Shown: positions 6,040 through 41,269 of the stretch, in pieces
Layout: every line of letters begins with the position of its first letter
Numbering within the stretch: the stretch's first letter is position 1
Source of the DNA: Methylobacter sp.
GTDB lineage: Bacteria > Pseudomonadota > Gammaproteobacteria > Methylococcales > Methylomonadaceae
Assembly: GCA_030684815.1 (NCBI GenBank)
Contig: JAUXXQ010000120.1
Location: forward strand, 18,492 to 82,491
Direction: 5' to 3'
Length of the DNA stretch: 64,000 nt
Program-made: the position numbers and the translations under genes
The notes under the pieces: generated by a model
Databases searched by the model: none
The model's input: only the letters and a program-made list of their open reading frames with translations
What the model was told of the DNA's origin: nothing

Positions 6040-6090
6040 TTGTCATAAAACTGTCATAAAGCTGTCATTTTACTGTCATATTGCTGTCAT
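6040..6090 (+). promoter_or_regulatory. Array of five Pho-box half sites upstream of the porin
   Basis: TTGTCAT at 6040 is followed by four exact CTGTCAT copies at 6051, 6062, 6073 and 6084. The spacing is exactly 11 bases each, with A/T-rich 4-base spacers. This matches the tandem 7+4 arrangement of PhoB binding sites (CTGTCATA-AA-style). It lies 42 bases before the porin start, in the position of an activated promoter. Confidence 0.85.
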
Positions 6091-8304: not shown

Positions 8305-10584
8305 ATGTTGCACTCGAAACGACTCCTTAAACTGTTATTGCTGCCTGCGTTTGCCGGTAGTTTTGCCTCCGCCGCCGAAAGCACAGACAAAGCCGAAAAG
8401 CCCATTATCCTCGATACCGTCAATATTCTCGGTGATGCGGCTGCGGTAAAAGACATGCCGGCCTCTGCCCAGCTGATTGATACCGAACAAATCCGCGACC
8501 AAAGTTATAGCGATATTAACCGCATTTTGCGCCGTGTCCCCGGCGTCAATATCCGTGAAGAGGACGGTTTCGGGCTGTTCCCCAACATCAGTTTTCGCGG
8601 TGTCGACACCACCCGCAGCGCCAAAATCACGGTCATGGAAGACGGCGTACTGGTCGCCCCGGCCGCCTATTCCGCGCCGGCCGCTTACTTTAACCCGGCC
8701 GGCGGCCGCATGAGCGGCGTGGAAGTATTGAAAGGTTCCAGCCAGATCAAATACGGCCCGCATATCACCGGCGGCGTCATGAACTACTTGTCCACCGCGA
8801 TTCCAGACAGCGGCAAGGCTTACCTCAAAGCCATTTACGGCAGTTATGACGAAATCAGAACCCACGGTTATGTCGGCGACACCATAGACACCGCCCATGG
8901 CCGCGTCGGCTATTTGGTGGAAGGCTTCTACCGGGGCTCGGACGGCTTTAAAAGCATCGACACCACGCCGGATTTCCAAAACAGCGGCCAAACCGGCTTC
9001 CAACAAGTTGAGCCCATGGTGCGCTTGTCCTGGGAACCGAATACCGACATCTATCAAAAGCTTGAGGTCAAATACGGCTTTTCCAGCATGGATGCCGATG
9101 AAACCTACTTAGGCACCAGCGAAGAAGACTTTAGGCATGATCCCTACCGGCGTTATTCGGCATCGCGTTTCGACAATATCAAATCAGACCGCAACGGCGG
9201 TTTTGCGCGTTATTTTATCTCGCCCACTGACAACCTCGATATTGTGACCACCGGCTATTACAACGAATTCAACCGCAATTGGAGCAAGTTGAACGACATC
9301 CGCAATGTGCCGAATGCCTCTGGAACCGGCACACAAAACATGGATTTGGCAGCCGCTTTGGCGGGGACTAACGGCGGCAACGGCTTATCATGTCTTAAGG
9401 GCGACCTGAACTGCCAACTGCGCGTCAGGGACAACAACCGCAGCTATTATGCCGCTGGCGTCGAAACCTCAGCCAATTACCGTTTCGACCTGGGCAAGAC
9501 ACAACATGAACTCAATGGCGGCTTCCGTTATCATGAAGATAAAGAAGCCCGGTTCCAACATGACACCAACCATAACCAGGCAGCGGGCGGCACTATTGCC
9601 AGCACGGTTGTCGGCGCACCGGGCAGCCAGGACGACCGTTTCGGCCTGACCAATGCCTATGCGTTTTTCCTGAAAGACCGCATCGAACTGGGTAAATGGG
9701 GATTCACCCCCGGTATGCGTTACGAGCATTTGAATCAGGTTTACGTCAACAACCTCAATCCCGGCACCAATGGCCGCAGTTCGCTGGATATGTATGCGGG
9801 CGGCGCCAGTTTGGATTACCGCTTCAACGAGGATTTCATGATGTTCGGCAGCGCCCATCGCGGCTTTTCGCCACCTAGCCCACAAAATGCTGTCATTGAC
9901 AAACTGAAAGAGGAATCGAGCAATGCCTACGAGTTGGGCGGCCGTTATAGCCACGGGGCTTTTTCTGCTGAACTGACTGCTTTTTATACCCAATTCGAGA
10001 ATTTGCTGGTGGTCAATAACATTGGCGGCGCTGGCAGCGGAAAAAGCGAAAACTTCGGTGCCGTCGATAGCCGGGGCGTCGAAATGGCGATGAATTTCGA
10101 TGCCGGTAAAGCCTTCGACTGGGGTTTTAGCAACCCTTATTTCCTGTCCTTTACTTATACCAACACCGAACAGTTGAATAGTGCCGCGTCGAACAATGCG
10201 GAATCGATTTTCAGTTACGGCAAAAAAGGCAACAAGATACCGTATATACCGGAATATTCACTCAGCTTCGGCAGTGGATTGCATTTCAACAAATGGGGTC
10301 TTGATGTGTCCGGCAATTATGTCGGCGAAACCTTCACCAGCGCCAATAATACCGGCGAACAATTTAACGGCGTAGGCTCGCCGGATGCGCGTTTCGGCAA
10401 AACCGACGACTATGTCATCGCCGATGTCTCAGCCTATTATAAGGTCGCCAAAGGCGTCAAGATTCTTGGCGGCGTACAAAACCTGTCCGATGAACAATAT
10501 CTGGTGTCGCGGCAACCTTACGGCCCGCGCCCCGGTATGCCGATTTTTGCCTACGGCGGTTTTGAACTGGATTTTGATATTTGA
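8305..10584 (+). CDS. TonB-dependent receptor, ferric citrate (FecA)-like
   Basis: Outer membrane active-transport receptor of 759 residues. The signal peptide is MLHSKRLLKLLLLPAFAGSFASAAES. The plug domain (residues ~30-160) includes SAQLIDTEQIRDQSYSDINRILRRVPGVNIREEDGFGLFPNISFRGVDTTRSAKITVMEDGV and GVEVLKGSSQIKYGPHITGGVMNYLST, typical of the FecA/ferric-dicarboxylate group. The C-terminal barrel ends with aromatic-rich GMPIFAYGGFELDFDI. No extra N-terminal signalling domain is present, so it does not drive a FecR/FecI pair. The ATG follows AAGGGA. Iron or a siderophore is the likely substrate; copper or cobalamin cannot be excluded. Confidence 0.88.
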   Translation: MLHSKRLLKLLLLPAFAGSFASAAESTDKAEKPIILDTVNILGDAAAVKDMPASAQLIDTEQIRDQSYSDINRILRRVPGVNIREEDGFGLFPNISFRGVDTTRSAKITVMEDGVLVAPAAYSAPAAYFNPAGGRMSGVEVLKGSSQIKYGPHITGGVMNYLSTAIPDSGKAYLKAIYGSYDEIRTHGYVGDTIDTAHGRVGYLVEGFYRGSDGFKSIDTTPDFQNSGQTGFQQVEPMVRLSWEPNTDIYQKLEVKYGFSSMDADETYLGTSEEDFRHDPYRRYSASRFDNIKSDRNGGFARYFISPTDNLDIVTTGYYNEFNRNWSKLNDIRNVPNASGTGTQNMDLAAALAGTNGGNGLSCLKGDLNCQLRVRDNNRSYYAAGVETSANYRFDLGKTQHELNGGFRYHEDKEARFQHDTNHNQAAGGTIASTVVGAPGSQDDRFGLTNAYAFFLKDRIELGKWGFTPGMRYEHLNQVYVNNLNPGTNGRSSLDMYAGGASLDYRFNEDFMMFGSAHRGFSPPSPQNAVIDKLKEESSNAYELGGRYSHGAFSAELTAFYTQFENLLVVNNIGGAGSGKSENFGAVDSRGVEMAMNFDAGKAFDWGFSNPYFLSFTYTNTEQLNSAASNNAESIFSYGKKGNKIPYIPEYSLSFGSGLHFNKWGLDVSGNYVGETFTSANNTGEQFNGVGSPDARFGKTDDYVIADVSAYYKVAKGVKILGGVQNLSDEQYLVSRQPYGPRPGMPIFAYGGFELDFDI

Positions 10585-39375: not shown

Positions 39376-39415
39376 CTGTCACAAAACCGTCAACAAAACG
39401 TCACACTATTGTCAA
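39376..39415 (+). promoter_or_regulatory. Pho-box array upstream of the secreted beta-helix-like gene
   Basis: CTGTCAC (39376), CCGTCAA (39387), ACGTCAC (39398) and TTGTCAA (39409) are spaced exactly 11 bases apart with A-rich spacers, as in PhoB sites. It is more degenerate than the array upstream of the porin. Confidence 0.7.
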
Positions 39416-39565
39416 AAAACATCGGTAGCCTTGGCTGAAGTTGGAGCGCATTAACTAGCGTTTAATTATGTCAATAAATCATTGCGTTGTTTTTATTGGC
39501 AATAATTAAGCGCTAGCAATCCAGCCCATACACTTCTTTAAAACCACCACAAAAGGTCTATTTCT

Positions 39566-41203
39566 ATGAGTCCATCCCCTAAACTGAAAAGAACAGCCGC
39601 TGCCGCGCTCGCTTTATTGGGCGGCAGTGCCTTATTCAATGCGGCCGATGCAGCCAATGCCGTGTTCGATCCTGCAACTAGCGTTTTAACCATTTCCGCA
39701 GTCGATGTGCCTAACGGCACGACCCATGTCAACGCACCGACATTCAACGCCAAATTAAGGTTGGTACATACCGCGCCTTTCATCAAACTGGAATTGACCG
39801 AAGCCGCCGTTATTGTTACGCCTAATGCAGACCGCGCGCATTTTGACCCGGTTTTCGGACAGGTTTATCTGCCTAGCATTGATGTGGGCGGAACTCAGTT
39901 CGCCGCAACGATGAAACTCATACCCGGTTCCAATCCAATGGCTTTCGAAGTCACCGGTTTACATGAAAAAGCTTTCACCGGCTGCCCTGCATTTGCACGC
40001 CCTTCAAATAATGTTGCTGGTGCCTGCGTACTGGAAGGCGAATACAATCAGAATATTACCCTGACCAACAATACACAATGGATTCTCAGCGGCGGCGTCT
40101 TTATCGGCGGCGACCGTACCGGCAGCGCAACCATCACCATCGAACCCGGCACCCGCTTAGTGGGCCGTTCCGGTCGCGATTTTCTCTACATCCGTCGTAA
40201 CTCGCAAATCCAGGCCATCGGTACGCCGCAACATCCTATCGTGATGACCGGCCCTAACGAACAACAGCCGGGCGAATGGGCCGGTTTAGTCATCGCGGGC
40301 AATGCACCGGCGAATGGCTGTTCGGAAGGCTTTACCGGCGGTTGCGAGCAATTGGATGAGGCGCTGACCACACCTTACGGCGGCAACAATCCGAATGATA
40401 ACAGCGGCGTTATCAAATACGTTTCCCTCCGTTATGCCGGATTTGAAATTCGTCCCGACGAGGAACTCAACTGTTTGACTATGCTCGGCGTTGGCAACGG
40501 CACCACCATCGATTTCGCGCAATGCCACATGGGCGCGGATGACGGTTTTGAAATGTTCGGCGGTACTGTCAATATGAAACATTTGGTTGCGACCTTCAAC
40601 GGTGATGACCAATTCGACTGGCAAATAGGCTGGCAGGGCAAAGCGCAATATGTTTTGGGGATGTCTTTGCCGGACGGCAGCGACGCCGGTATCGAAGCGG
40701 ACAACAACGAGAGGAACCACAACAGTTTGCCACGCTCGCACGGTAAAATATCCAACTTCACTTTAATCGGTAACGGCTCAGGTGTCGACGGTCACGGCAT
40801 CGTGTTAAGACGCGGCACGGGTGCCAATATTTATAACACTGTCATAACCGGCTTTGGCCGTTCTTGCATGACCCTAGACAATGCTGCAACCTTTGAGCAT
40901 GGCGGGATGCCAGGTAACCTGACCGGCACGTTGACTATGCAAAACAGCCATGTCCAATGCGATTTGGATTTTAACGACCGCCCTGCCGAACCTTTCCTAG
41001 TCAGCGCCTGGTTTAATTCGCAAGCAGGCAATGTGGCAGGCAATGTGCAGTTAAACGGTTATTTGCCAGCCGCAGGCTCACCGCAGTTAACCGGCGGTGC
41101 GCCAGTACCGAACGATCCTTTCTTCGATGCAGTGAATTATGTTGGCGCGTTTGCCAATGAAAATGATGATTGGACTAAAGGCTGGACGATTGGCCTAAAT
41201 TAA
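39566..41203 (+). CDS. Secreted protein with probable right-handed beta-helix
   Basis: 545 residues with a signal peptide (MSPSPKLKRTAAAALALLGGSALFNAADA). The C-terminal two thirds (from about residue 165) consist of repeated short strands typical of parallel beta-helix proteins: WILSGGVFIGGDRTGSATITIEPGTRLVGRSGRDFLYIRRNSQIQAIGTPQHPIVMTG, then GVIKYVSLRYAGFE, TTIDFAQCHMGADDGFEMFGGTVNMKHLVA and SGVDGHGIVLRRGTGANIYNTVITGFGRSCMTL. Two Cys pairs are present. I do not know the function. The Pho-box array upstream suggests use in phosphate starvation, possibly as a surface or periplasmic binding protein or enzyme. A strong terminator follows. Confidence 0.7.
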   Translation: MSPSPKLKRTAAAALALLGGSALFNAADAANAVFDPATSVLTISAVDVPNGTTHVNAPTFNAKLRLVHTAPFIKLELTEAAVIVTPNADRAHFDPVFGQVYLPSIDVGGTQFAATMKLIPGSNPMAFEVTGLHEKAFTGCPAFARPSNNVAGACVLEGEYNQNITLTNNTQWILSGGVFIGGDRTGSATITIEPGTRLVGRSGRDFLYIRRNSQIQAIGTPQHPIVMTGPNEQQPGEWAGLVIAGNAPANGCSEGFTGGCEQLDEALTTPYGGNNPNDNSGVIKYVSLRYAGFEIRPDEELNCLTMLGVGNGTTIDFAQCHMGADDGFEMFGGTVNMKHLVATFNGDDQFDWQIGWQGKAQYVLGMSLPDGSDAGIEADNNERNHNSLPRSHGKISNFTLIGNGSGVDGHGIVLRRGTGANIYNTVITGFGRSCMTLDNAATFEHGGMPGNLTGTLTMQNSHVQCDLDFNDRPAEPFLVSAWFNSQAGNVAGNVQLNGYLPAAGSPQLTGGAPVPNDPFFDAVNYVGAFANENDDWTKGWTIGLN

Positions 41204-41229
41204 CCGGCAGACACCCTCTTAGACTTTTG

Positions 41230-41269
41230 GCGTCAAAACTGTAGCGATACAGTCTTGGCGCTTTTTTTT
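41230..41269 (+). terminator. Rho-independent terminator of the beta-helix-like gene
   Basis: GCGTCAA and ACTGTA pair with TACAGT and TTGGCGC around a GCGA loop, followed by eight T. Confidence 0.85.

Follow-up and report, generated by a model that had tools for sequence, protein, structure and literature searches.

A putative PhoB-controlled secreted beta-helix protein of Methylobacter whose homologues adjoin a large TonB-dependent receptor

What does an exported protein do if its gene stands behind an array of four Pho-type half-sites? This question is raised by a gene of Methylobacter sp. that we analysed within a window of 64,000 nucleotides, i.e. the whole stretch of DNA under study. The features of the gene, together with the places found in a genome-wide scan for similar arrays, are collected in Table 1.

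Table 1. Features of the beta-helix gene and places of the genome-wide Pho scan (window positions unless a contig is named)
Feature	Position	Strand	Remarks
Pho box, four GTCA half-sites	39376..39415	+	11-base steps; CTGTCAC (39376-39382), CCGTCAA (39387-39393), ACGTCAC (39398-39404), TTGTCAA (39409-39415); spacers AAAA, CAAA, ACTA
Candidate -10 hexamer TAGCCT	39426..39431	+	10 bases past the fourth half-site; inferred from alignment
Gene of secreted beta-helix protein	39566..41203	+	545 aa; ORF call correct
Sec signal peptide	39566..39652	+	residues ~1-29; AxA-type cleavage; no lipobox
N-terminal beta-sandwich domain	39659..39970	+	residues 32-135
Right-handed parallel beta-helix	40013..41125	+	residues ~150-520; part common to the whole family
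Acidic core	40538..40618	+	DDGFE (325-329)...DDQFD (347-351)
Intrinsic terminator	41229..41269	+	hairpin (-18.5 kcal/mol) and T8; shuffle z-score -2.6
Scan place 1	6040-6090		array before the Porin_O_P phosphate-porin gene
Scan place 2	39376-39415		before the beta-helix gene
Scan place 3	contig C40		before the DUF3450-ExbB-ExbB-ExbD-TonB-TPR-TBDR cluster
Scan place 4	contig C37 (L146:2440-4447)		before a PlcP-like metallophosphoesterase gene that overlaps a glycosyltransferase gene
Scan place 5	contig C84 (L002:1501-1526)		short contig; three-GTCA ladder near a small PIN-like gene

By sequence, neither the single protein nor a profile of 39 members matched a Pfam, NCBIfam or PDB family. We predicted the structure with AlphaFold2 from 37 homologues, leaving out two rows from plasmid records. 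The model (mean pLDDT 91.0, pTM 0.89) comprises a disordered signal peptide, a beta-sandwich and a stack of beta-coils, with the boundaries given in Table 1. Together with the signal peptide, it agrees with a preliminary description of this DNA, according to which the protein is exported and likely a parallel beta-helix. A29 and A32 are nearly invariant in the alignment of the close homologues. The N-terminal beta-sandwich could be aligned only within this close group and is present in two copies in the homologues of genomes G023 and G026. A Foldseek search against the PDB resulted in weak matches to right-handed parallel beta-helices (best E 8e-4, TM ~0.2-0.3), including tailspikes, the alginate epimerases AlgE and AlgG, and polygalacturonases; a search of viral folds also gave weak beta-helix matches. 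As the Foldseek scores are weak, the protein has no close solved relative.

Several residues are nearly invariant, namely W238, E300, D325, D326, G327, E329, D347, D348, D351, E377, W536 and W540. Most positions among DDGFE, DDQFD, E300, W238 and E377 are conserved in 36 of 37 sequences. The positions of the acidic residues on consecutive coils point to a face that binds a metal or a ligand or is catalytic, and in the model the acidic core may form a binding or catalytic site. The single exception at the acidic positions in the close-group alignment is L070 (genome G095). This homologue is an orphan without a receptor cluster and retains hardly any of the acidic residues that are invariant elsewhere; it is likely a decayed or repurposed copy.

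The family also varies in how its members may be held at the cell. A lipobox scan detected no lipobox in the window protein and the whole close group, which carry an ordinary signal peptide, and found one in most distant members. Many homologues of ~900-1370 amino acids (L054, L055, L058, L074, L123-L127, L133-L135 and others) contain the beta-helix domain at least twice in tandem per lipoprotein. A further subfamily (L057, L081, L082, L086 and L095) has, ahead of the beta-helix, a cytosolic-looking N-terminal stretch followed by a predicted membrane segment. For these five, no neighbouring TonB-dependent receptor (TBDR) was found, and they are probably periplasmic with a different role.

The main new point of our analysis lies in the gene neighbourhoods. 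The preliminary description missed the TBDR partner, which says most about the function. In Parabacteroides as well as in gamma- and alphaproteobacteria, most homologues have a large TBDR as neighbour; many of these loci add a dedicated DUF3450-ExbB-ExbB-ExbD-TonB-TPR set, and several homologues adjoin phoB-phoR. In Alteromonas macleodii pBGP9, for instance, the order is phoB, phoR, PstS-like, 2OG-oxygenase, beta-helix, TBDR, DUF3450, ExbB, ExbB, ExbD and TonB. Parabacteroides has the TBDR followed by the beta-helix, many alphaproteobacteria have beta-helix, TBDR and then gspD and gspE, and in Nitrosomonas halophila the TBDR gene lies immediately upstream of the beta-helix gene. In Alteromonas and one alphaproteobacterium (L058, L136), the beta-helix/TBDR pair is accompanied by a 2OG-Fe(II) oxygenase gene.

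In the window, the beta-helix gene stands alone, and no TBDR gene is adjacent. The host genome nevertheless encodes exactly one receptor of the partner type, which lies with the full energiser set on contig C40 (L122:5609-14253) in a cluster next to which the beta-helix gene usually lies; here its counterpart is the window gene, on a different contig. This receptor has Plug, barrel and N-terminal CarboxypepD_reg domains. The cluster is preceded by its own four-half-site Pho box, GTGTCACATTTCTGTCATCAATCCGTAATTTAACTGCAAT, and a type II secretin is also encoded on C40. Among 237 genomes of the host's bacterial family, the beta-helix is present in 12, the receptor in 11 and both in 10 (Fisher p = 5.7e-15). 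Within the genus, one other sampled genome (G037) has the pair, again on separate contigs, and its receptor cluster is also preceded by a Pho ladder. The sole genome with a receptor and no beta-helix gene is G147, where the receptor gene is in pieces with internal stops and split over contigs C242 and C38. The window itself contains another TBDR gene (8305-10584), of the FecA/siderophore type, directly after the Pho-boxed phosphate porin gene. We rejected this receptor as a partner because it is FecA/siderophore-like and because a search of the host genome for the true partner type matches only the C40 receptor.

Since homologues in many bacteria occur together with an outer-membrane importer of their own that carries the same switch, the beta-helix protein probably forms the extracellular part of a little-known system that scavenges phosphorus compounds. 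We therefore propose, with a probability of about 0.6, that it is the extracellular capture or processing partner of a Pho-controlled, TonB-driven phosphorus uptake. Two observations on the family count against this reading. A capture role needs retention at the surface, and the window protein is devoid of the lipobox that is usual in its relatives; furthermore, there is the membrane-anchored group without a TBDR neighbour.

The fold would also fit a secreted enzyme, i.e. a polysaccharide hydrolase or lyase or a phosphodiesterase with a catalytic acidic core, that frees phosphorus-bearing fragments for the receptor and does not need to contact it. The window protein shares the fold class and the stacked acidic residues with beta-helix polysaccharide enzymes (GH28, AlgE/AlgG, phage tailspikes), and the nearest solved folds, all of them weak matches, are mostly polysaccharide-acting beta-helices. 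In addition, the spacing between the near-invariant motifs D325-D326-G-x-E329 and D347-D348-x-x-D351, 21 residues, is that of the aspartates in polygalacturonases. Relatives from Flavobacterium were modelled on a polygalacturonase by their authors, and one of them is annotated to the pectin-lyase fold (FII, see below; PMC8115612). However, at E <= 0.01 none of the 39 members matches GH28 (Pfam PF00295) or lyase families, except for an N-terminal accessory domain in one, and the fold scores are low. Moreover, acidic ladders can serve to bind calcium with no catalysis involved. We thus consider such a stand-alone enzyme rather unlikely. A search for GH28 proteins to be used in a profile comparison detected none in 143 gammaproteobacterial genomes at E <= 1e-20.

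Published relatives give a second line of evidence. ElpS (CC_0170) of Caulobacter crescentus is a surface lipoprotein that is induced by phosphate starvation and released by proteolysis; its gene adjoins the TBDR CC_0171 and type II secretion genes (PMC2996285). Alphaproteobacterial homologues of the window protein keep this order of beta-helix, TBDR and type II secretion genes, and those in the ElpS-syntenic position (beta-helix, TBDR, gspD/gspE) have 35-43% identity over residues ~140-545. In Flavobacterium johnsoniae, the lipoproteins FI, FII and FIII (Fjoh_3856, Fjoh_0546 and Fjoh_4889) are among the exoproteins most induced by phosphate starvation. Two of the three genes have an induced TBDT as neighbour, one is located in the phoBR cluster, and the identity of the proteins to the Caulobacter protein is given as 31-36% (PMC8115612).

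Based on gene order and published similarity, the window protein would belong with ElpS and FI-FIII. With both it shares the TBDR partner gene, which is adjacent in most homologues but unlinked in the host genome. In contrast to ElpS, it has an extra N-terminal beta-sandwich and no lipobox, and its TBDR is encoded on a separate contig, together with an ExbB/D/TonB set of its own. As the lipobox is absent from the window protein and the close group, we regard it as a relative or variant and not as an ElpS. FI-FIII are likewise phosphate-starvation-induced exoproteins with TBDT neighbours, whereas they are lipoproteins; type II secretion and a DUF3450 energiser cluster are not mentioned in the portion of PMC8115612 available. 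According to the preliminary description, the protein would, if controlled by PhoB, be an uncharacterised member of the phosphate-starvation response. Its predicted Pho membership is supported by sequence, but the family is not wholly uncharacterised, given the link to ElpS and FI-FIII.

ElpS has been proposed to activate a secreted alkaline phosphatase or to act as its chaperone, as overproduction of ElpS resulted in higher phosphatase activity in the supernatant while ElpS itself had none (PMC2996285). Deletion of elpS, however, left the supernatant phosphatase activity unchanged (PMC2996285). In the homologue loci, the constant neighbour is a TBDR, and no phosphatase occurs among the neighbour families identified by typing against a limited reference set. 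The protein itself has no Pfam or NCBIfam match to the alkaline phosphatase domains of PhoA, PhoD, PhoX or PafA. An activator role thus appears improbable. The Caulobacter data also bear on the proposed role in uptake: the missing effect of the deletion, the reported constitutive expression of CC_0171 and the intracellular phosphate, for which no change was detected when rich medium was replaced by poor medium (PMC2996285), count against a capture partner.

Is the gene indeed controlled by PhoB? The array is as it had been described: GTCA is present in all four half-sites, every step is exactly 11 bases, and the ATG lies 150 bases past the end of the box. Three GTCAs at 11-base steps did not occur in any of 60 windows simulated under a first-order Markov null of the window. 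In PhoB-activated promoters the box replaces the -35 element, which is thus not needed, and the box with the downstream hexamer would correspond to this layout. We aligned the upstream region with those of the two closest homologues, from a Methylobacter MAG (L008, 85% identical) and from N. halophila (L009, 77% identical). In both, the ladder is in place, and the half-sites form a conserved block while most of the surrounding sequence diverges. A -10-like hexamer follows at identical spacing (TATTCT in L008, TAGACT in L009). The gene is predicted to be a single-gene unit that ends at the terminator in Table 1, which is absent from a consensus terminator scan with a different stem rule.

Across the whole assembly (4,292,581 bases in 235 contigs), which we scanned by pattern, three-GTCA ladders occur in four places, and ladders of at least four GTCA only in scan places 1 and 2. 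A looser blind scan with GTCA-N7-GTMA-N7-GTMA detected the five places in Table 1, four of them at phosphate-type genes; on the short contig C84 no phosphate gene was seen. The metallophosphoesterase on C37 is LpxH-like, yet far under the LpxH cut-off. With the overlapping glycosyltransferase it likely forms a phosphate-starvation lipid-remodelling pair, which we take to be the plcP-agt operon. PhoB is encoded on contig C56 (TIGR02154, 342 bits against a cut-off of 296.2), with phoR downstream and a two-half-site box upstream of phoB.

Next to these host genes, we compared the best three-half-site score upstream of 62 homologues with the scores of 916 other genes of these loci as controls. At 11-base steps, the median score was 19.35 for the homologues and 15.5 for the controls (Mann-Whitney p = 5e-22, a descriptive value that overstates independence, as the homologues are related by descent and the scores use our own simple consensus weights). 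The control 95th percentile was exceeded by 41 of the 62 upstream regions at this step; at steps of 9, 10, 12 and 13 bases the numbers were 9, 3, 5 and 8. The enrichment is found in each group: close gammaproteobacterial (12/16), distant gammaproteobacterial (18/30) and alphaproteobacterial homologues (11/16). Homologues without upstream Pho boxes, named in the preliminary description as an argument against PhoB control, are thus not the pattern observed here. A literature search found no phosphate-starvation transcriptome of the host's group.

The rarity of the array, its conservation in L008 and L009 and the enrichment at 11-base steps make control by PhoB very likely, and the homologues beside phoB-phoR and the PhoB of the host genome support it further. 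As 11-base direct repeats are general to the OmpR/PhoB family, the ladder could serve another regulator of this family or be due to chance, with the gene outside the Pho regulon, but this is highly improbable given that the half-sites are of the GTCA type and conserved in L008 and L009, that the host's phosphate porin and phoBR are preceded by the same motif, and that there are homologues adjoining phoBR.

The proposed uptake of phosphorus with the beta-helix protein as capture or processing partner would proceed as follows. When phosphate is low, phosphorylated PhoB would bind the four half-sites, and the transcript would start at the downstream -10, as judged from sequence and conservation. 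Together with the beta-helix gene, PhoB would switch on the C40 receptor cluster as well as the porin and the lipid-remodelling pair. The protein would be exported via Sec and then reach the cell exterior, possibly by the type II secretion system of the host. Its conserved acidic ladder may bind or trim a phosphorus-containing substrate, which would be passed to the dedicated TBDR, powered by its own DUF3450-ExbB-ExbB-ExbD-TonB-TPR machine. The shared Pho switch would thus reunite a system that is split between contigs here and consists of neighbouring genes in most other bacteria.

Such a system would work like SusCD/PusCD in that an outside protein is paired with a SusC-like TBDR carrying a CarboxypepD_reg domain at its N-terminus. 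The likeness concerns the way of working only: SusD/PusD has the alpha-helical SusD fold whereas the window protein is a beta-helix, and the two have no sequence relation. More tentatively, there may be a widespread class of PhoB-controlled TonB importers in which a beta-helix replaces SusD and a dedicated DUF3450-ExbB-ExbB-ExbD-TonB-TPR set serves as energiser. These would import a phosphorus-bearing macromolecule via binding by calcium or the acidic ladder, and could be split and still held together by shared Pho boxes.

Lastly, we analysed the history of the system. In the tree, N. halophila stands beside the window protein and L008 (100/100 support) within a group that otherwise belongs to the host's own family. 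The C40 receptor is 73% identical to the N. halophila receptor compared to 58-60% to the next in the family. This agreement between the beta-helix tree and the receptor identities suggests that the system was transferred horizontally between methanotrophs and an ammonia oxidiser.

Phosphorus is limiting in many waters and soils, and relatives of the protein are among the most abundant exported proteins of starved Flavobacterium. Our analysis adds a concrete set of partners (receptor and energiser), a shared switch and near-invariant residues. A hypothetical protein thus becomes a testable uptake system that would be present in methane oxidisers and in one ammonia oxidiser.
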